Positions 32,501-54,075 of a stretch of DNA of 64,000 nucleotides are shown here, in pieces. Each line of letters begins with the position of its first letter. Positions within the stretch are counted from its first letter, which is position 1. The notes beneath the pieces were generated by a model, which was not told where the DNA came from, did not search any database, and saw only the letters and a list, made by a program, of their open reading frames with translations. The stretch is from an uncultured Stenotrophomonas sp. (GTDB lineage Bacteria > Pseudomonadota > Gammaproteobacteria > Xanthomonadales > Xanthomonadaceae): NCBI GenBank assembly GCA_913775725.1, contig CAJYNG010000006.1, positions 1-64,000 of the forward strand, written 5' to 3'. A program made the translations under genes and the position numbers.

Positions 32501-33002
32501 GCCCCGTCTCCCGCGCGCCGACGAGCTCGGCGTGCTGCCGGCGATCGAACGGCGTGCCGGTGAACTGCTGAAGGGCCACGAAGCCTACCCGGTGTTCGCC
32601 GGCCATGGCCTGGACCTGCCAACGCTGCAGGACGGCCTTCAGCGTGGCCAGTTGTGGGTGGTGGATGCGGCTGACGGTGGCATCGCGGGCTACCTGCTGG
32701 CAGGCGAGCTGAGCGGCGATTTCCATGTCCTGCAGATGGACGTGGATCCGGCACATGCGCGTCGCGGCCATGGCCGAGCGCTGCTGCGCCATGCATTGGC
32801 GCAGGCGAGGGCGCATGGCCATGCGGCTGCGGTGCTGACCACGTTGTCCGACGTACCGTGGAATGCGGCCTTCTACGCCAGCGAAGGGTTCGAGGTAGTG
32901 CCCGAGGCGCAGTGGAGCGCTGGCCTGCGCACGGTGATGGCCGAAGAGGCCGCGCTGGGATTTCCAATGCATCTGCGCGTGGCGATGCGGCAGGTTTGGT
33001 AG
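32469..33002 (+). CDS. GNAT family N-acetyltransferase
   Basis: This is a 177-residue predicted acetyl-CoA-dependent acyltransferase. The acetyl-CoA-binding signature is [19 protein letters not shown] (R-x-x-G-x-G type), preceded by the strand FHVLQMDV; a later [13 protein letters not shown] is the typical GNAT strand-helix. The ATG at 32469 lies inside the end of glmU, an overlap of 32 nt in another frame, so its translation is probably coupled. The TAG stop (33000-33002) is part of a GTAG repeat. The substrate is unknown. Confidence 0.82.
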
Positions 33003-33041
33003 GGGCCGACCTTGGTCGACACATCCACGCATGGCGTGGAT
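32999..33041 (+). repeat. GTAG-headed repeat overlapping the GNAT stop codon
   Basis: GTAG at 32999-33002 leads into a gccgacc / ggtcgac hairpin, and then an 8-bp stem atccacgc / gcgtggat at about 33023-33041. The TAG of GTAG is the GNAT stop codon. Confidence 0.7.
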
Positions 33042-33058
33042 CTATTCGCTGGGCCGGC

Positions 33059-34411
33059 TCAACCCACCGGCAACAGAATCGACACGCACAACCCGCCATC
33101 ACCACGGTTCTGCAACGACACCCGCCCACCGTGCGCTTCCACGATCTCGCGGGTCAGCGCCAAACCCAATCCAGTGCCATTGCGCTTGGTCGAATAGAAC
33201 GGCATCAGTGCGTTCTGCAGCACCTGCTCGTTCATGCCCTTGCCGCGGTCAAGCACGTCCAGGCGCAGCCACTGCGGCAGCCGCGCAAGGTGCACCTGTA
33301 CGTCATCGTTGGGCGGATCAGCTTCGGCGCAGGCTTCATGCGCGTTCTTCAGAAGATTCAACAACGCCTGCCCGAACTGGGCGATGTCGATGCGGCTGCT
33401 CAGCTCCTCGTCCGGTTCGCGATCCATGGTGAACGGGATCTGCTGGCGCAGGCTGGACAGGAAGGGGGCCCAGTGCACGGTCTGCAGCTGCGGCTGCGGC
33501 AGCTTGGCAAAGCGTGCGTAGCCCCGGATGAAGCCTTCCAGATGGCGCGCACGGTCTTCGATGGTGGTGAAGATCTCCGGCAGCCTGTCGAAGCGCTCGC
33601 GCTGCACCAGCACGCCACCGGAATGCGCCAGCGATGCGATCGGTGCCAGCGAATTGTTGAGCTCGTGGCTGATCACCCGGATCACCTTCTTCCAGGTCTG
33701 CACTTCCTGACGGCGCAGTTCGGCGGTCAGCAGGCGCACCAGCAGCAGGTCGTGCGGGCGGCCATTGAGCTGGAACGCGCGGCGCGACAGGTGGTAGACC
33801 TGCTCGTCATCCTCATCGCCGTCTTCGCCTTCCGCATGCACCGCGAACAGGCTGTCACCGCCACGGGCGATGGCATCGCGCAGCTCCACCGGCACCTGCT
33901 CCAGCACCTCTTCCAGACGCTGGCCTTCCAGCTTCCAGCCGCCATGCAGCAGCTTGCGCGCGGCCAGGTTGGAGAACACCACGCGGGCGATGCCGTCGCC
34001 GCCGGATGCGATCAGCAGCATCGCCACCGGCGTGTTCTGCACCATGGTGTCCAGCAGCAGCTCGCGCTGCACCAGGCCCTGCCGCTGCGCACGCAGCACG
34101 TCACCCAGTTCGCGGTGCGCCTGCACCAGGTCGCCCAGTTCGTCGTTGCCGGGCCAGTGCACGCCGAAGTTGTATTCACCGTCGCGGTAGCTGCTGGTGG
34201 TCCCCGACAGCGCACGCATCAGTGAACGCACCGGTGCGGTGGCACGGCGCAGGGTCCACCACATCAGCGACAGCAGGATCAACGCCGACACCGTGGTGAC
34301 TACCCAGCCATGGTCCATCCAGTACGCCAGCAGCCACGGCAACGCCGCAGCCAGCGCCAGCACCGGCAGCAGGCGCAGGAACAGGCGGAAGGTGAACGAG
34401 CGACGTTTCAT
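33059..34411 (-). CDS. Membrane sensor histidine kinase, partner of the NtrC-type regulator
   Basis: This is a 450-residue kinase. Two membrane segments close together (about 10-30 and 38-54) leave almost no periplasmic loop, so it probably senses in the membrane or cytosol. A short linker and a PAS-like segment (about 120-225) lead to the dimerisation domain with His249 in RVISHELNNSLAPI. The ATPase core has LLNLLKNAHEAC (N box), VLDRGKGM (G1) and GTGLGLALTREIVEAHGG (G2). The NtrY/NtrB-like H box matches a sigma54 response-regulator partner. Its ATG overlaps the regulator stop by 4 nt (ATGA), so the two are translated together. Confidence 0.92.
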   Translation of the reverse strand: MKRRSFTFRLFLRLLPVLALAAALPWLLAYWMDHGWVVTTVSALILLSLMWWTLRRATAPVRSLMRALSGTTSSYRDGEYNFGVHWPGNDELGDLVQAHRELGDVLRAQRQGLVQRELLLDTMVQNTPVAMLLIASGGDGIARVVFSNLAARKLLHGGWKLEGQRLEEVLEQVPVELRDAIARGGDSLFAVHAEGEDGDEDDEQVYHLSRRAFQLNGRPHDLLLVRLLTAELRRQEVQTWKKVIRVISHELNNSLAPIASLAHSGGVLVQRERFDRLPEIFTTIEDRARHLEGFIRGYARFAKLPQPQLQTVHWAPFLSSLRQQIPFTMDREPDEELSSRIDIAQFGQALLNLLKNAHEACAEADPPNDDVQVHLARLPQWLRLDVLDRGKGMNEQVLQNALMPFYSTKRNGTGLGLALTREIVEAHGGRVSLQNRGDGGLCVSILLPVG

Positions 34412-35754
34412 TCGCGTGGGATGCCGTGCCGATCCATGCGCCGGTACAGCGCCTGGCGGCTTAGACCGAGTTCGGCGGCGGCCTGTGCGATGACGCCGTG
34501 GTTGCGCGCCAGCACATCCTCGATGCGCGCTCGGTCGGGATCATTGCCGGCACTGGCCACCGCGCGTGGTGCGGGGGCAGCACGAGGCAGGTTGAGATCG
34601 GTCACTTCGATGCGGTTGCCGGTGGCCAGCAGCTCGGCGCGCTGGATCACGTTGCGCAGCTCGCGCACGTTGCCTGGCCAGGGGTGCCGCTGCAAGGCCG
34701 CGGTGGCCGCAGTGGACAACGGCTTGCCAGCGGTCAGGAAACGCTCGGCCAGTGGCACGATGTCGCCCGGGCGTTCGGCCAGCGGCGGCAGCACCAGCTC
34801 CACGGTGTTGAGCCGGTAATAGAGGTCTTCGCGGAAGGTACCGTCGCGGATCATGGCCGGCAGGTCAGCGTTGGTGGCGCTGACCACGCGCACCTTCACC
34901 TGGCGTTCGCGGTTGGAACCCAGGCGTTCGAAGCGGCCGGTTTCCAGTACGCGCAGCAGTTTCATCTGGCCGCCCAGCGACAGGTTGCCGATCTCATCCA
35001 GGAACAGGGTGCCGCCATCGGCGGCTTCGAACTTGCCTTCGCGTGCCTTGTTGGCACCGGTGTAGGCGCCGGCATCGGCACCGAACAGTTCGGCTTCGAT
35101 CAGCTCCGACGGCAGTGCGCCGCAGTTGACCGTGATGAACGGCCCCTTGGCCACCAGCGAGTTGGCCTGGATGATCTGCGCGATCTTTTCCTTGCCCGCA
35201 CCATTGGGGCCGGTGATCAATACCGGCAGCTCGGAGCGCGCGACCTGGCAGGCCAGCGCGATCACGCGCTCGCTGGCGGGGTCGGCGAAGACCGCGCCGC
35301 ACAGGTCGTACTTCTCTTCCAGCGCGTTGCGCTGGCGCAGCTCACGGCTGCGGCGCCGGTCCAGTTCGCGGCGCGCCTCGGACAGTTCCAGCAGGTTGTT
35401 GACCGTGGTCATCAGCTTGCGATCGTCCCACGGCTTGGCCAGGTAGTCGGCCGCACCGGCCTTGACCAGATCCACCGCGCTGCTGAGGTGGGTCCAGGCC
35501 GTCAGCAGGATCACCGGCAGATCGGGATGGCGCGCGCGGATCTGCGCGAACAGGGCCTCGCCCTCTTCGCCGGAGGTGGTGTCTTCGCTGAAGTTCATGT
35601 CCTGGATCACCAGGTCGACCGGCTGTGACTCCAGCAGGGCCAGCCCTTCGGACGGGCTCTGCGCCTGCAGGGTGTCGATGTCGTGCAGGGAGAACAGCAC
35701 GTCCAGTGCGGTGCCCACACTGGCGTTGTCGTCGATGATCAGGATTGCAGGCAT
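34408..35754 (-). CDS. NtrC-type sigma54-activator response regulator
   Basis: This is a 448-residue activator. The receiver (1-120) has the acidic pair DD at 8-9, phosphoacceptor Asp52 (VIQDMNF) and Lys in DYLAKPW. The AAA+ domain (about 150-370) has Walker A GPNGAGKE, the sigma54-contact loop GAYTGA (normally GAFTGA) and Walker B GTLFLDEIGN. The C-terminal Fis-type HTH is AAAELGLSRQALYRRMDRHG. The start at 35754 is the usual MPAILIIDDN; an upstream GTG extension is not conserved-looking. It lies 165 nt after the exporter permease, with a hairpin (35878-35903) between, so it may have its own promoter or be transcribed by read-through. The exporter upstream carries a sigma54 promoter. Confidence 0.93.
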   Translation of the reverse strand: MPAILIIDDNASVGTALDVLFSLHDIDTLQAQSPSEGLALLESQPVDLVIQDMNFSEDTTSGEEGEALFAQIRARHPDLPVILLTAWTHLSSAVDLVKAGAADYLAKPWDDRKLMTTVNNLLELSEARRELDRRRSRELRQRNALEEKYDLCGAVFADPASERVIALACQVARSELPVLITGPNGAGKEKIAQIIQANSLVAKGPFITVNCGALPSELIEAELFGADAGAYTGANKAREGKFEAADGGTLFLDEIGNLSLGGQMKLLRVLETGRFERLGSNRERQVKVRVVSATNADLPAMIRDGTFREDLYYRLNTVELVLPPLAERPGDIVPLAERFLTAGKPLSTAATAALQRHPWPGNVRELRNVIQRAELLATGNRIEVTDLNLPRAAPAPRAVASAGNDPDRARIEDVLARNHGVIAQAAAELGLSRQALYRRMDRHGIPRE

Positions 35755-35877
35755 CACATGGTTCTGCAGAAAGGGATGGGCGGCGCCGATGGAGCCGTTC
35801 GTGTCCATGTACCGGGAGAGCCCGGCGCCACCCATCAAGCATAGCCAAACCCGTGGCGCCACAGGGGCACCATCGGA

Positions 35878-35903
35878 GGCCGGGCCGTCGACGCAGCCCG
35901 GCC
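35878..35903 (-). terminator. Hairpin between the exporter permease and the regulator
   Basis: An 8-bp stem (ggccgggc / gcccggcc) with a 10-nt loop lies 17 nt after the permease stop. There is no T tract, so it is probably a weak attenuator or an RNA-end stabiliser rather than a full terminator. Confidence 0.45.
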
Positions 35904-35919
35904 CGTGTGGTGCGGGGCC

Positions 35920-37134
35920 TCAGGTACCCCGGGTGGCGACCGCCGGGGGGACAGCTGCAGCGCGGCGGGCCGGGCCGAACACGGCGATCTGGCCCAGCGC
36001 CCACAGCAGCAGTGCACCCAGCGGCAGGTACAGCAGCGGCATGCGTGGCAGCTCGTACATGTTCATCAGGGCCAGGTTGATCGCATAGGCGGCGAGCATG
36101 CCCAGCACGATACCCAGCGTGGCCAGCAGGAAGTTCTCGGTCTGGAAATAGCGCAGGATCTGCCCACGGGTGGCACCGAGTGCGCGGCGGATGCCGATCT
36201 GCTTGCTGCGCTGCTGCACCCAGAAGCTGGCCAGGCCGATGATGCCCAGTGCGGTGACCACCAGCAACGAGATGCAGACGGTGATCAGCAGGCCAACCAT
36301 CGCACGATCGTTCTTGAAGTAATCCTTGCGCTGATCCTCGTAGGTCTCCTTCTCGCGCACCAGCCGATTGGGGTCATTGCGTTCAAGCGCAGCGATCGCG
36401 CCCTTGAGCACTTCCTCGCGCCGTTCCGGGGCGGTACGCAGCACATATGGGCCCTGGGTGAAGTCGGTTCGCACCGGCAGGACCATCGACAGCGTCGTGT
36501 TGTTGTTGTAGTCGGTGGGAGTCGCCAGCGCGGCGACGATGCCGACCACGTGCAGCGGCTGCTTGCCCATGTAGAACGTCTTGCCCAGTGCACTCTCGCC
36601 CGGGTACAGCTTGTCGGCGAGGGTGCGGCTGATGATCACCGAGGACGCCGTATTGGATGAGGCGTTCTTCTGTGCGTCCTCGAAATTGCTGTACTCGCTG
36701 GACTGGAAGTCACGGCCGGCGGTCAGCTGCAGCCCGAGCGTGGGCAGCCCGCCTTCGCCGAACATGTACATGGTGACGAAGGCGGTTGGCCGCTCCTGTT
36801 CCTGTTTAAGCGAAACGCTGGTGTTGGAGGAGTTCGGGCGGAACGGCAGCTGGTTGACCTTGGCTGCGGCAGTCACGCCGGGCACCGCGCGCAGGGCCGA
36901 CAGGTCTTCCTGGGTGCGGGACTGACCGTTGGTCTGCTTGCCGATGCCACTGACCCGGACGAACACCAGTTCGTTCTCGGCCAGGCCGCTGGTCTGGCTG
37001 ATCCGTTCCACGCGCTGGGTGACCAGGAACAGGGCATTGCAGACGATGGCGCAGGTCAGGGCAACTTCCAGCACGATCAGGGCGGCGGCCGTCTTGTGCC
37101 GGCGCAGGGTGCTGAGGATGGGGCGGATATCCAT
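35920..37134 (-). CDS. MacB/FtsX-type ABC exporter permease (second permease)
   Basis: This is a 404-residue FtsX-like permease. A first membrane helix (about 15-40) is followed by a large periplasmic MacB-PCD-type domain (about 45-270) and three C-terminal helices (about 280-300, 330-355, 365-390). The conserved QQRSKQIGIRRALGATRGQI before the second helix contacts the ATPase. It shares the fold but little sequence with the upstream permease gene, so the two may form a heterodimer. Its last residues (ATRGT) end 165 nt before the regulator gene. The substrate is unknown. Confidence 0.88.
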   Translation of the reverse strand: MDIRPILSTLRRHKTAAALIVLEVALTCAIVCNALFLVTQRVERISQTSGLAENELVFVRVSGIGKQTNGQSRTQEDLSALRAVPGVTAAAKVNQLPFRPNSSNTSVSLKQEQERPTAFVTMYMFGEGGLPTLGLQLTAGRDFQSSEYSNFEDAQKNASSNTASSVIISRTLADKLYPGESALGKTFYMGKQPLHVVGIVAALATPTDYNNNTTLSMVLPVRTDFTQGPYVLRTAPERREEVLKGAIAALERNDPNRLVREKETYEDQRKDYFKNDRAMVGLLITVCISLLVVTALGIIGLASFWVQQRSKQIGIRRALGATRGQILRYFQTENFLLATLGIVLGMLAAYAINLALMNMYELPRMPLLYLPLGALLLWALGQIAVFGPARRAAAVPPAVATRGT

Positions 37135-37155
37135 GGGAGGTCCTCGTACTCGTGC

Positions 37156-38457
37156 TTACTGCGACTTGAGCTGGATGGCCGGGGTGACCTGCATCGCGCG
37201 CCAGGCGGGCAGGAAACCGGCGGCGAGGCTGGCGAACAGGGTCAGGCCGATGGCCAGCAGCAGCATGCTGCCGTCCAGGTGGGCCAGATCCGCGTAGTCC
37301 ACGGGTTGCTGGCGTACCGCGTACAGGCCAAGCAGCGCCAGGCCGATGCCAAGCACACCGCCGGCAACGCCGATTGCACCGGCTTCAACCAGACACTGCA
37401 GGAAGATCTGCCCACGGCTGGCACCGAGGGCGCGACGCACGCCGATCTCGCCGCTGCGGCGCAGGAACTTGGCCAGCAGCAGGCCAACCGTATTGACCAG
37501 GCAGACGCCGAGGAAGCCCAGTGCCAGCCACATCTGCAGGCGCACGTCGCTGGGCACGGCGTTCTTGAAGGTCAACCACTCCATCACCGGGCGCAGCCGC
37601 ACGTTGGTGGGGCGCTCGAAACGCCCCGCTGCACGCTGCTGGTCCGAGTAGTTGACCAGGTAGCTGCGGTAGTCCTCAACCTTGGCCGGGTCCAGCTCTA
37701 CCCAGTACTGGATCCAGCTGCACGGCGCGCTGATCGAGTTGCTGCTGCCATCCGGATTCTCGCCGAAGCAGTTCATGTTGCCGTTGCTGCCGAACTCCAG
37801 GTCCATCGCAGTGGAGAACGGTGCCAGCAGGTCTTCATCCTTGCCGTAGTTGCCGGTGGTCAGATCGAAGAAGTGGGGTTCGGGGCTCCACTCCTTCATC
37901 ACGCCGATCACCCGAAGCGAGTGGCCGTTGAGACGGATCTCGCGCCCCGTGCTGTCGGCGCCCTGGAACAGCTTGTCGTTGATCGCCTTCGACAGTACCA
38001 CCACGCGGCTGCGGTTGTCATCGTCGCTGCTGCTCCAGGCACGCCCGTACTGCATGGGCACGTCGAACATCGGGAAGAAATCAGCCGACGTCCAGCGCGT
38101 ATCCACCGAGAAGGGCTTGAGCGTGCTGAGCTCCGGCTCCACCGTGCCACCGCCCGCACTCATCATCGCCTGGCGGACGCCGCGCTTCTCGCGCAGCAGG
38201 GTCTCGGCGTCGCGCCGGGTCATCTGCTCTTCGGGCTCCTCGCCGGGGGTATAGCCCCCCCGCGGGCGTGGATCGACCTGCACATAGAACAGGCGGTCGC
38301 TCTTGCCTGGAATCGGGTCACCGGAGAGCACGTGGAACACGGTCAGCGTGGTCATCGAGGCACCAATGCCCAGCGCGATGGCGACCACCATCAGCGCGGT
38401 CAGTATCTTGTTGCGGTGGAAGCTGCGCACCGCCAGTCGGGCGTAGTAGGCGAACAT
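37156..38457 (-). CDS. MacB/FtsX-type ABC exporter permease (first permease)
   Basis: This is a 433-residue permease with the MacB layout. An N-terminal membrane helix (about 17-40, ALMVVAIALGIGASMTTLTV) is followed by a long periplasmic domain with conserved cysteines (NCFGENPDGS and the following PCSW). Three C-terminal helices follow, with GEIGVRRALGASRGQIFLQ at the ATPase contact. The gene is 10 nt after the ATPase gene and 21 nt before the second permease. A substrate such as an antibiotic, siderophore or peptide is possible but cannot be assigned. Confidence 0.9.
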   Translation of the reverse strand: MFAYYARLAVRSFHRNKILTALMVVAIALGIGASMTTLTVFHVLSGDPIPGKSDRLFYVQVDPRPRGGYTPGEEPEEQMTRRDAETLLREKRGVRQAMMSAGGGTVEPELSTLKPFSVDTRWTSADFFPMFDVPMQYGRAWSSSDDDNRSRVVVLSKAINDKLFQGADSTGREIRLNGHSLRVIGVMKEWSPEPHFFDLTTGNYGKDEDLLAPFSTAMDLEFGSNGNMNCFGENPDGSSNSISAPCSWIQYWVELDPAKVEDYRSYLVNYSDQQRAAGRFERPTNVRLRPVMEWLTFKNAVPSDVRLQMWLALGFLGVCLVNTVGLLLAKFLRRSGEIGVRRALGASRGQIFLQCLVEAGAIGVAGGVLGIGLALLGLYAVRQQPVDYADLAHLDGSMLLLAIGLTLFASLAAGFLPAWRAMQVTPAIQLKSQ

Positions 38458-38467
38458 GGTCGAACCC

Positions 38468-39193
38468 TCACTCGTTGACGGCGACGATGTGGCGCGGCGG
38501 AGTGGCCAGCACCGGCTCGCGGACCAGGTCGGTCACCTGACCATCGACGATGTGCACGTTGCGCTGCGCGCGCGCGGCCAGTTCCGGGTCGTGGGTGACC
38601 ATCACGATGGTGGTGCCGGCGGCGTTGATCTCCTCCAGCAGCTCCATCACGCCGCGGGCCATCTGCGTGTCCAGGTTGCCGGTCGGTTCGTCGGCCAGCA
38701 GCAGGCGCGGGCTGCCGGCCAGGGCACGCGCGATGGCCGCGCGCTGCTGCTGGCCACCGGACAGTTCATTCGGGTAGTGCTTCATGCGCGAGCCGAGACC
38801 GACCTGGCTCAGCGCCTTCTCGATACGCTCGCGGCGCTCGTTGGCGCTCATCTTCCGATAGCGCAGCGGCACGTCCACGTTGTCGAACAGGTTCAGGTCG
38901 GGGATCAGGTTGAAGCCCTGGAAGATGAAGCCGATCTTCTGGTTGCGCAGGCGGCTGCGGGCGTCGTCACCCAGCGTGCTCACATCCTGGCCGTCCAGCA
39001 TGTAGGTGCCGCTGGTGAAGGTTTCCAGCAGGCCGGCGATGTTGAGGAAGGTGGTCTTGCCGGAGCCTGACGGGCCGGTGACGGCGACGAACTCACCTTC
39101 CTTGACCTGCAGTTCCAGCGAGCGCAGTGCGTGGGTTTCCACCTGTTCGGTGCGGAAGACCTTGGCGACCGAACGCATTTCGAGCATGTACAT
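38468..39193 (-). CDS. ABC exporter ATPase (MacB/LolD type)
   Basis: This is a 241-residue cytosolic ATP-binding subunit. It has Walker A GPSGSGKTT (40-48), the Q loop text GFIFQGFNLIPDLNLFDNV, the ABC signature LSGGQ (144-148), Walker B LLLADEPTGN (about 165-174) and the H loop VTHDPELA. This is the LolD/MacB subfamily that powers FtsX-type permeases. The gene is 10 nt upstream of the first permease and 35 nt downstream of the membrane-fusion gene. Confidence 0.95.
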   Translation of the reverse strand: MYMLEMRSVAKVFRTEQVETHALRSLELQVKEGEFVAVTGPSGSGKTTFLNIAGLLETFTSGTYMLDGQDVSTLGDDARSRLRNQKIGFIFQGFNLIPDLNLFDNVDVPLRYRKMSANERRERIEKALSQVGLGSRMKHYPNELSGGQQQRAAIARALAGSPRLLLADEPTGNLDTQMARGVMELLEEINAAGTTIVMVTHDPELAARAQRNVHIVDGQVTDLVREPVLATPPRHIVAVNE

Positions 39194-39228
39194 GGTGTGT
39201 CCTCTCTCCAGGATTCAGGTATCAGGTA

Positions 39229-40506
39229 TCAGTTGACGGAGACGCGTTCGGCGTCCTTGAACAGGTCGCTGCCGGAGACCACGATGCGGTCGCCCGGCTG
39301 CACACCCGACTTGATTTCCACTTCGCCCAGGCTGCTGACGCCCAGTTCCACCGGACGCCGCACCGCGGTACGGCCATCCATCACGTAGGCCATGCCGTTG
39401 CCCTGTTCGACGAACGGACCACGCTCGACCTTCAGCACGTCCTTGCGGGTGTCGAGCAGCACGCGCACCGACATCCGCTGGCTCTGGCGCAGGCCTTCCG
39501 GCTGCGCGCTGGCGAAGCGCACGCGGGCATTGACCTCGCCGTTGACCACTTCCGGCGACACCGCGCTGATCTCGCCCGGGAACGGCTGGCCGTTGCCGCC
39601 GGTCAGCTGTGCGGGCATGCCGATTGCCAGGTCACGGGCGAAGCTTTCCGGCACCTTGATCTCGACCACGAACTTGGACAGGTCGACCACGCCCAGCACC
39701 GGCGCATTGGCGGCCAGGTTGGTGGACTGGACGGCCTGCACCTGGCCGACCTGGCCATCGAACGGTGCACGCAGGGTGAGCGCATCGACCTGGCGCTGTA
39801 CTTCAGCCACCACGGCCTTCTGGCGGTCGGCCAGCAGGCGCTTGTTGCGGGCATCCAGATCGGCGCCCTGGCTCTGCAGGCGGGCATCGGTGGTGGCGTT
39901 GGCCAGGGTGATGTCGGCCTTCTTCAGCGAGTCCTTGGCCTTGGCCAGATCGATCTGCGGCACCGCACCGCCGTCGTAACCGCGCTGGTAGCGCTGCAGG
40001 TCGCGGTCGGCGGCCTGTCGTTCGATGGTGGCCTGGTCGGTTTCCTTGCGCGACTTGGCGCGGGCCAGGGTGGCGTCCAGCGCGGCGCGGCTGGCCTCGG
40101 CTTCCAGACCGGCCAGGGTAGCCTGCTCCTGGGCCAGCTTGCTGCGCAGTTCCGGGCTGTCGATGACCGCCAGCTCCTGGTCCTTCTTGACCACGTCGCC
40201 GGCGACCACCTTCAGGTCTACGGTGCCGGCCGAGATGGCGTACAGGATCGGGCTGTTGGCGGCGATCACGCGGCCGTCAGCGGCGATGTCGCGGACCAGG
40301 TCGCCGCGCTTCACTTCGGCGATGCGCACGCGGCTGCTGTCGAAAGAGCGGCTGGCATTGGACCAGGCGTGCACGGCCCAGCCGATGCCGGCGAGCAGCA
40401 CGATGGCGCCCAGTGCCGGCCAGCGGTAGCGCTGCCAGTTGGCGCGGGTGGTGCCGGCCGGGGCGGAGGAAACGATCTGGTCCTGTGCGGAAGTGTCGCG
40501 GATCAT
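39229..40506 (-). CDS. Membrane-fusion (HlyD/MacA-like) protein of the exporter
   Basis: This is a 425-residue periplasmic adaptor. A short cytosolic tail leads to one membrane helix (about residues 30-46, ALGAIVLLAGIGWAVHAW). A lipoyl-like barrel then flanks a long alpha-helical hairpin (about 110-240), followed by a beta-barrel and a membrane-proximal domain ending GDRIVVSGSDLF. It connects the permeases with an outer-membrane factor; no TolC gene lies here. The start at 40506 is preferred; the frame upstream is not protein-like. It is the first gene of the exporter operon, 22 nt from the predicted transcription start of a sigma54 promoter. Confidence 0.9.
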   Translation of the reverse strand: MIRDTSAQDQIVSSAPAGTTRANWQRYRWPALGAIVLLAGIGWAVHAWSNASRSFDSSRVRIAEVKRGDLVRDIAADGRVIAANSPILYAISAGTVDLKVVAGDVVKKDQELAVIDSPELRSKLAQEQATLAGLEAEASRAALDATLARAKSRKETDQATIERQAADRDLQRYQRGYDGGAVPQIDLAKAKDSLKKADITLANATTDARLQSQGADLDARNKRLLADRQKAVVAEVQRQVDALTLRAPFDGQVGQVQAVQSTNLAANAPVLGVVDLSKFVVEIKVPESFARDLAIGMPAQLTGGNGQPFPGEISAVSPEVVNGEVNARVRFASAQPEGLRQSQRMSVRVLLDTRKDVLKVERGPFVEQGNGMAYVMDGRTAVRRPVELGVSSLGEVEIKSGVQPGDRIVVSGSDLFKDAERVSVN

Positions 40507-40540
40507 CGGATGCGTGCCTGACGGTGGTAGCCAATACCAA

Positions 40541-40556
40541 GCACGTAGCGTGCCAA
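40541..40556 (-). promoter_or_regulatory. Sigma54 (-24/-12) promoter of the exporter operon
   Basis: On the minus strand the sequence TTGGCACGCTACGTGCTT has GG at 40554-40553 and GC at 40542-40541 with exactly 10 nt between. It agrees with the consensus TTGGCACGnnnnTTGCT at all specified positions except one (T to G). The expected transcription start is about 40529, giving a 22-nt leader. The ten-nt GG/GC spacing is what sigma54 requires. Confidence 0.75.
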
Positions 40557-40596
40557 CTTTATTTCCTTTCAGGTCAACAGGTTGGGAGGCGTGCTG

Positions 40597-40667
40597 AAGT
40601 GTCCGGGTGTCCGCGGACACCTTTCCGGACACTTTCATTAAGCGGACAGGAGGGGGAAGCCGGACAC
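40597..40667. promoter_or_regulatory. TGTCCG/CGGACA half-site array (predicted activator-binding UAS)
   Basis: Six half-sites lie in 68 bp, TGTCCG at 40600 and 40608 and CGGACA at 40614, 40626, 40643 and 40662. The inner pair makes a perfect 16-bp palindrome (ggtgtccgcggacacc, 40606-40621) nested in 10-bp outer arms (aagtgtccgg / ccggacactt, 40597-40606 and 40625-40634). Its centre is about 84 bp upstream of the predicted exporter start, the usual distance for a sigma54-activator enhancer. It also overlaps the divergent glmS promoter region. Confidence 0.65.
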
Positions 40668-40673
40668 GCAGGC

Positions 40674-40679
40674 TAGAAT
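40674..40679 (+). promoter_or_regulatory. Candidate -10 element of glmS
   Basis: The hexamer tagaat lies 30 nt before the glmS ATG. Two CGGACA half-sites (40643-40648 and 40662-40667) sit in its -35/-10 window, so the exporter activator could interfere with or affect glmS. Confidence 0.4.
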
Positions 40680-52977: not shown

Positions 52978-54075
52978 ATGATGGCCACGACAGTCGGGCA
53001 GCAGCAGTTGGTGGCGGCACGTGCCGCTTTCGCCGAGGGCGATGTGCGCTCATTGGGCGTGTTGCCGCTGCCGCTGCAGCAGTCATGGCTGCGTTCGCGC
53101 GCGGCGGGCCTGCAACCGGGGCAGGAGCCGGACTATCGGCCGCTGCTGGGGGGCGGACAGCGTCTCCCGCATCCCGACGACCGGCGCCTGGCACGTTGCG
53201 TGCAGCCGGAGCTGGAGCAGCTCTGGGCGGCCTTCGGTGGGCGTGGCTGGACGATGTTCTGCGCCAACCGCGACGGCATGGTGATCGCGCAGCAGGCCCA
53301 CGGCCTGGAAGATGCTCCCTTGCTGCGGCCGATCCAGGTCGGGCGACAGCTGGGCGAGACGGAGATCGGCACCACCGCGCCAGCGGTCAGTCTGGCCGAC
53401 GATGTGCCGGCACTGGTGCGAGGCAACGAACATTACCTGCAGCGGTTCGCGCCGGTGTTCTGCCTGAGCGAGCCACTGCACGATCTCGACGGTCGGGTCT
53501 GCGGGGTGATCGACATCACCGGTCTTGGCGAGCGCGATCCCGCCCTGCTGCAGGGCTATTTCCGGCAGGCTGCGCTGGCCAGCGAAAATCGCTTGTTCCA
53601 CAGCCTCACCGACGTGCATCTGCTGGCCGTGCAACATGATCCGCGCTGGCTGGCGTCACCGCTGCAGGGACTGCTGGCGGTGCAGGAGGATGGCCAGCTG
53701 CGTGCAGCCAACCGCGTTGCACGGCGCCTGCTGGGCCTGCCACGGCGGGGGCCGTTGCCGCTGCTGGATCTGGAGGCGCTGTTTGCTGGCGCCAGTGCGG
53801 CGCAACGGCGTCGCCTGCTGCAACCGGGCGCAGCGCATCGGGTCCGGTTGGGCGAGGGCAGCGCGGTCTACCTGCAGCGTCTGCAGGGGCCGCGGGGCGG
53901 GGCGCATCGGCCTACTCAGCGGAGCACCCCGGCAGATCCGGTCGCGCCGCTGCTGCGTGACCAGCGGCGTGAGGCCGCGCGCCGCGCGGCCCAGGCCGCT
54001 GACGGCAACCTCAGCCTGGCCGCACGCCAGCTGGGGATCTCGCGCACCACGCTGTACAAGCTGCTGCGCGATTGA
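52978..54075 (+). CDS. GAF-domain regulator with Fis-type HTH, lacking the sigma54 AAA+ domain
   Basis: This is a 365-residue AcoR/DhaR-like transcriptional regulator without its ATPase. The N terminus is a GAF-type sensory domain with RPIQVGRQLGETEIGTTAPA, typical of AcoR-type activators. A segment of about 130 residues replaces the AAA+ domain, and no Walker A, GAFTGA or Walker B is present. The C-terminal HTH_8 is LAARQLGISRTTLYKLLRD. It should bind DNA but not drive sigma54. It lies downstream of and in line with the aldehyde and alcohol dehydrogenase genes, so it is their likely regulator. The start MMATTV at 52978 is uncertain. Confidence 0.85.
   Translation: MMATTVGQQQLVAARAAFAEGDVRSLGVLPLPLQQSWLRSRAAGLQPGQEPDYRPLLGGGQRLPHPDDRRLARCVQPELEQLWAAFGGRGWTMFCANRDGMVIAQQAHGLEDAPLLRPIQVGRQLGETEIGTTAPAVSLADDVPALVRGNEHYLQRFAPVFCLSEPLHDLDGRVCGVIDITGLGERDPALLQGYFRQAALASENRLFHSLTDVHLLAVQHDPRWLASPLQGLLAVQEDGQLRAANRVARRLLGLPRRGPLPLLDLEALFAGASAAQRRRLLQPGAAHRVRLGEGSAVYLQRLQGPRGGAHRPTQRSTPADPVAPLLRDQRREAARRAAQAADGNLSLAARQLGISRTTLYKLLRD

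Follow-up and report, generated by a model that had tools for sequence, protein, structure and literature searches.

A window of 64,000 nucleotides from an uncultured Stenotrophomonas sp. (the whole stretch of contig CAJYNG010000006.1 that was analysed; its nearest records are Stenotrophomonas maltophilia-complex genomes) carries a six-gene operon coding for a MacB-class ATP-binding cassette (ABC) exporter, an NtrC-type response regulator and a histidine kinase. The operon appears to be transcribed from its own σ54 promoter, and an array of TGTCCG half-sites next to this promoter is, as judged by comparison of genomes, a regulon code that the exporter operon shares with a gene, unlinked to it, whose product is of secreted type. 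We lean towards reading the operon as an inducible envelope-defence module, in which a toxin-responsive exporter with permeases as receptors and a secreted protein form one σ54 regulon. The regulatory part of this reading is well supported; sensing, ligand and the role of the secreted protein are what we infer.

As proposed in an earlier reading made from the sequence only, the promoter has exact GG-N10-GC spacing (GG at 40554/40553, GC at 40542/40541) and departs from TGGCAC-N5-TTGC at one position. Six half-sites, TGTCCG or CGGACA (40600, 40608, 40614, 40626, 40643 and 40661), lie inside 72 bp, compared with a biggest cluster of three in 300 Markov simulations of the window. They include the perfect 16-bp palindrome that the sequence-only reading had described, and TGTCCGCGGACA was found again in many Xanthomonadaceae and in several distant orthologous operons. 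Conservation was determined in the best 80 of 517 orthologous loci. The region upstream of the adaptor gene was readable in 63 of them, and the other 17 were dropped because the sequence retrieved stopped short of the adaptor start; addition of the window gave 64 regions, and 63 were counted after L044 (68 bp long) had been left out. TGGCAY-N6-TGC was present in all 63 of these Xanthomonadaceae intergenic regions and at least three exact half-sites in 61 (window included), and none of 200 shuffled regions contained the promoter or three or more half-sites. In an alignment of 37 regions the elements were constant while four spacer bases and the flanks varied. The earlier proposal was to be abandoned if related genomes lacked promoter and array in front of this operon, and it passed that test.

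The same arrangement was found outside the family. The orthologous regulator is distinct in a search of 398 genomes from the window's phylum, with 23 matches of at least 416 bits and the next at 330. Nineteen regions were fetched around regulator orthologues; 17 included the adaptor start, of which 15 lie outside Xanthomonadaceae. All 15 carry TGG at −24 and at least two exact TGTCC/GGACA upstream (three or more in 14), and GG-N10-GC is kept in 11, with A or T for the last C in L124, L128, L131 and L135. A sixteenth out-of-family operon, whose start lay beyond the first stretch, has a perfect promoter and five half-sites. Promoter and at least two half-sites were found in 16 of the 16 out-of-family operons read, four with a weakened −12. 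The response regulator shows the features of the NtrC family, namely an intact receiver (DMN), an AAA+ domain with GAYTGA and a Fis-type helix-turn-helix. Among 24 orthologues compared, the GA(F/Y)TGA loop is present in 20 (GAYTGL in L124 and L129, GAFTSA in L131 and L135). The C-terminus is readable in 22 of them (all but L025 and L135); 20 of these have the exact recognition helix, SRQALYRR, and L126 and L129 differ from it at one position. The helix appears to be conserved jointly with promoter and array in Xanthomonadaceae and distant gammaproteobacteria, which makes the design look old. This joint conservation strongly supports the central proposal of the sequence-only reading, an exporter with its own σ54 promoter and regulator pair; binding of the array by the response regulator is predicted from it.

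Further members of the regulon were sought with a pattern in which a σ54 site follows two half-sites that face each other, the reversed pattern serving as control. This search returned 22 matches in nine of 23 genomes versus two for the reversed pattern. In five of five same-genus genomes it found, besides the operon, an unlinked gene that codes for a repeat protein of secreted type. The pattern is strict: 14 of the 23 genomes gave no match though their operon arrays are visible. Among 18 genomes reached via named loci (at least one of which, G519, is apparently the same assembly as G284), 16 had a match and one a reversed match, and in 10 a second place, each one read, precedes the repeat-protein gene. 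One match in G362 falls within a frame. The exporter had been called self-contained, which was wrong, since the same code stands before this unlinked gene.

In the window's genome the repeat protein has 158 amino acids (G000:C11:205908-206381), tandem TLxxVQVRPSAEQ repeats and a start that is signal-peptide-like as judged by eye. It belongs to NCBIfam NF052303, the XAC0231 family (167.5 bits; cut-off 140), and a σ54 site lies about 163 nt 5' of its start codon; the array in front of this gene is at about G000:C11:205645-205700. The family was matched in 22 of 119 Xanthomonadaceae genomes searched, and 19 of the 22 genes have a σ54 site 161-173 nt before the start codon plus at least one half-site (L184, L190 and L191 are without). 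In a partly overlapping set of 30 loci with 27 readable frames, 24 of the 27 carry the site; L285 and L286 retain half-sites, their promoters having 3 and 4 mismatches, and L295 has neither. In a sample of 220 genomes of the order, 31 matched the family (20 above cut-off; control genomes, 0 of 14) and 94 have the regulator. The regulator is also present in 30 of the 31 genomes with the secreted protein, the exception (G606) being a weak match of 21 bits. No function was found for the XAC0231 family, literature searches for XAC0231 and for three repeat strings being empty.

The leader of the secreted-protein gene keeps GGTG-N16-CACC over a σ70-like stretch in 24 of 27 loci (G000:C11:205854-205877; L264). 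We take this element to be a YtrA/GntR-type motif, and YtrA-type control is a lead only. The only near match to a longer form of the element elsewhere in the genome (G000:C20:262310-262333; L265) precedes a gene that is presumably efflux-adaptor-like. In the 330-contig assembly G485, the regulator orthologue (G485:C324:11863-13170) has one in-frame TGA, and the secreted-protein gene (L269) retains two half-sites and a promoter with two mismatches.

Array and σ54 site also stand before other genes in other lineages, where secretion was again judged by eye. In G362 they precede two proteins, one of secreted type with 94 aa and one resembling LiaG (23 bits, much lower than the LiaG cut-off); in G213, a frame of 68 aa that is of membrane or secreted type; in G397, a secreted-type protein; and in G154, a lipoprotein-like protein that we take to be of DUF885 type. 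The frame in G213 sits just before a presumably trmL-like gene, the same neighbour as that of the Stenotrophomonas repeat protein. Among 16 stretches around palindromes in other genomes, four had further half-sites and a σ54 score of at least 20 of 23 (one being the G213 operon), and the other 12 were set aside as chance. In G362, G213, G397 and G154 one regulator and one exporter appear to be combined with a changing envelope or secreted protein.

Pfam domains bear out the gene content of the sequence-only reading, and all genes have the same orientation in the order adaptor, ATPase, permease, permease, regulator, kinase (Table 1). MacB_PCD and FtsX domains above the Pfam cut-offs, together with a separate ATPase and an adaptor, place the exporter in the MacB class (type VII). 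A scan of 32900-36100 found neither a σ70-like promoter nor a terminator. The gene glmS adjoins the operon here and across much of Xanthomonadaceae.

Table 1. Coordinates of the operon and its control region in the window.
Feature	Position	Strand	Basis
Membrane-fusion protein (periplasmic adaptor, HlyD/RND type); opens the operon	39229..40506	-	Pfam HlyD_3, HlyD_D23; NCBIfam RND_mfp above cut-off
ABC ATPase, LolD/MacB/DarD type	38468..39193	-	Pfam ABC_tran; top NCBIfam DarD, 258.7 bits, below cut-off of 375
Permease 1	37156..38457	-	Pfam MacB_PCD + FtsX; N-half of ADOP model, below its cut-off
Permease 1 periplasmic domain, allele-variable part	about 37600-38400	-	allele classes
Permease 2	35920..37134	-	Pfam MacB_PCD + FtsX; C-half of ADOP model, below its cut-off
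Permease 2 periplasmic domain, allele-variable part	about 36400-37000	-	allele classes
NtrC-type response regulator	34408..35751	-	Pfam Response_reg, Sigma54_activat, HTH_8
Histidine kinase, HELNNSLAPI H-box	33059..34411	-	Pfam HATPase_c
σ54 promoter TGGCACGCTACGTGCT, 49 nt 5' of adaptor start codon	40540..40555	-	one mismatch
Presumed response-regulator enhancer, an array of six half-sites (TGTCCG/CGGACA)	40600..40666	.	clustering test and footprint
16-bp palindrome GGTGTCCGCGGACACC, core of the array	40606..40621	.	read in sequence

Operons differ in how many permease genes were detected between ATPase and regulator: 82 complete operons have two (63 operons), three (10), four (8) or eight (1), and 17 further loci are cut short, one of them showing 10. 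L123 has at least five and L136 four tandem permease pairs in one operon, whose identity to the window's pair differs widely. Three S. maltophilia-complex loci (L014:7486-8000, L009:7499-8000 and L011:7440-8000) have a secreted-type gene of 123-130 aa, PDZ-like by its sequence, between permease 2 and the regulator. This gene is absent from the window (35752-35919), and gaps of similar size occur in other loci.

Two other candidate sites were set aside. One is a second palindrome of the window's genome at G000:C13:241205, just 3' of which lies a presumably helicase-like frame. The other (53155-53203) is the second of the two one-mismatch σ54-like sites in the window; it overlaps predicted frames and has a single half-site. 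Before glmS, a −10-like TAGAAT/TAAAAT (40674-40679 in the window) is kept in most aligned regions; in some genomes distal half-sites of the array adjoin it, and the array might touch glmS expression. Control of glmS by the array is not claimed, as several S. maltophilia-complex loci lack the half-site at 40661, the closest one.

Hydropathy plots, though crude and with segments partly merged, give the kinase two adjoining N-terminal hydrophobic stretches, a very short loop and no periplasmic domain, both in the window and in 19 orthologues. The kinase of L120 has an additional N-terminal stretch, and the G397 region gave no kinase match. The regulator and kinase had been described before as a signal-sensing pair, but the kinase appears to have no periplasmic sensor domain, so that either the membrane or the permeases are the probable route of the signal.

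The periplasmic domains of the permeases are the variable part of the operon. Across 16 S. maltophilia-complex loci, DNA identity to the window is 88-98% for adaptor, ATPase, regulator and kinase; outside the window's class the periplasmic stretches reach 72-85% (37601-38200) and 62-80% (36401-37000), and the membrane parts more. Variation also affects the short segment that separates permease 2 from the regulator (62-85%). At least four ectodomain allele classes exist in the complex: class A (the window, L014, L019), class B (L009, L016, L021, L024), class C (L010-L013, L015, L017, L018, L020) and class D (L022, L026). Both permeases change class together and discordantly with the backbone; L009 and L016 share 98% in the permeases and 92% in the backbone, while L009 and L011 share 83% and 95%, respectively. 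At the protein level, the window's ectodomains are 70-81% (permease 1) and 57-69% (permease 2) identical to those of other classes. Nonsynonymous divergence (dN) between classes is 0.12-0.20 and 0.19-0.34 in the ectodomains versus 0.03-0.07 in the rest. This allele structure suggests diversifying selection. The secreted protein does not follow the permease classes. For the window's genome (class A), identities of this protein are 98.1, 99.4 and 93.7% with three strains that an identical promoter stretch links to class C loci, 96.2% with the class A strain D457 and 91.8% with class D. A role as specificity-matched substrate of the exporter is disfavoured on this ground.

We propose that an envelope-active compound is recognised by the permease pair, the probable ligand being an antimicrobial peptide or a lipid-like toxin. 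The engaged exporter would activate the kinase in the membrane, so that the transporter itself acts as the sensor, in the manner of Bce modules. Once phosphorylated, the regulator would bind the array and open the σ54 promoters of the exporter, of its own gene (positive feedback) and of the secreted protein, which may act outside the inner membrane against the same stress. Several observations weigh against an envelope-defence module of this kind. Neither the promoter match nor the half-site count was accepted as evidence by itself, as neither is unusual in the window (109 sites with at most three mismatches versus 146 expected, and 49 half-sites versus 48 expected). The short palindrome TGTCCGN0-2CGGACA is not enriched genome-wide, with two places versus three for the reversed control, and in several G+C-rich relatives the controls are equally numerous. 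Pattern matches without the repeat protein occur in G094 and G302 (one each), in L241 and L242 (both read) and in G525 (one), those in G094, G302 and G525 having been counted unread. The Fisher test for co-occurrence of regulator and secreted protein (8e-12) is inflated by the relatedness of the genomes, and in the order sample 64 of the 94 regulator-bearing genomes have no match to the secreted protein. Finally, the ratio of nonsynonymous to synonymous divergence (dN/dS) is below 1 in all pairs tested, ectodomains included, and positive selection was rejected for this reason.

A more far-reaching version of the envelope-defence reading is possible but tentative. The operon would represent a new class of Gram-negative chemical-immunity module, with recombining hypervariable permease receptors (one to at least five pairs) and a sensorless kinase that reads the occupied exporter. 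The regulator would fire the exporter and a lineage-specific secreted protein neutralising or binding the toxic compound outside the cell.

The tight co-regulation and co-occurrence of exporter and repeat protein could also mean that the exporter secretes this protein, or peptides cut from its repeats, as a dedicated secretion or signalling unit. The signal-peptide-like start and the tandem repeats would fit such a role, as would the different secreted or envelope protein found under the same code in some other lineages and the resemblance of adaptor and ATPase to the darobactin peptide exporter, though below cut-off. We consider secretion unlikely, given that the repeat protein is independent of the permease allele classes and is without a match in the 64 regulator-bearing genomes mentioned above; a processing enzyme beside its gene was not noticed either, though no search was aimed at one. 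Slightly less probable is a housekeeping machine resembling Lol or FtsEX, moving lipoproteins or lipids or transmitting force, that is induced by general envelope damage and has no specific toxic ligand. The ATPase is near the LolD and FtsE models, the permeases are of FtsX type, glmS is the neighbour in much of the family and one distant target is weakly LiaG-like; in a housekeeping complex, however, neither an exchange of ectodomain alleles nor a variable number of permease pairs is expected. That another regulator reads the array while the operon's own acts elsewhere is very improbable: binding is only predicted and the genome has five further strong and one weaker σ54-activator relative, but array and orthologous regulator travel together to distant gammaproteobacteria with an almost unchanged recognition helix.

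Among known systems, the envelope-defence module is best read as a Gram-negative, σ54-driven counterpart of Bce-type modules, by analogy. According to an excerpt of PMC7828314, BceAB-BceRS of Firmicutes combines an ABC transporter that carries a large extracytoplasmic domain in its permease with a response regulator and a kinase without extracellular sensing domain, a topology called intramembrane-sensing; the kinase described here is alike. In contrast to BceAB-BceRS, the present exporter is tripartite and Gram-negative (adaptor, two permeases), the regulator is a σ54 activator and the regulon includes an unlinked secreted-type protein. Bce regulators are of the OmpR type. Since the regulator here has σ54-activator domains instead, the operon was not filed as a Bce module, and sensing via the transporter is proposed by analogy. 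An enrichment of σ54 promoters at COG0577 antimicrobial-peptide permeases in gammaproteobacteria, Opitutia and Bacteroidia was published in 2025 (PMC12316311). As excerpted, that study is statistical and at COG level, and enhancer code, secreted protein and allele exchange do not figure in the excerpt; words starting with "Xanthomonad" or "Stenotrophomonas" have no occurrence in its main text. MacAB and the darobactin exporter DarBCD share the architecture of adaptor and MacB-class ATPase/permease, and their models were matched. The operon differs in scores below the equivalog cut-offs (every match to NCBIfam DarB, DarC and DarD), a separate ATPase, a permease pair and σ54 control. SmaCDEF of S. 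maltophilia is likewise an ABC-type efflux system of the same species group, with four named genes, Smlt1651-4, in the excerpts of PMC11356428 and PMC12189255. Identity with SmaCDEF was set aside by locus numbering only, the operon lying beside glmS at about 4.13 Mb in D457. Guessed Smlt locus tags of the operon led to no paper, and guessed XAC/XCC tags, their orthology being assumed, only to a listing of XAC3643. Searched as literature text, the palindrome gave only an unrelated occurrence.

An exporter of several gammaproteobacterial families gains a regulator, whose binding is predicted, a DNA code and a two-part regulon. The XAC0231 family, which has a name only and was known solely by a locus tag, gains a testable role through its co-regulated member. 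If the permeases are sensors, the transporter-as-sensor logic of Firmicutes exists in Gram-negative bacteria with a different transcription machinery. The exchanged periplasmic domains would offer a natural library with which to find the compounds that such bacteria meet.

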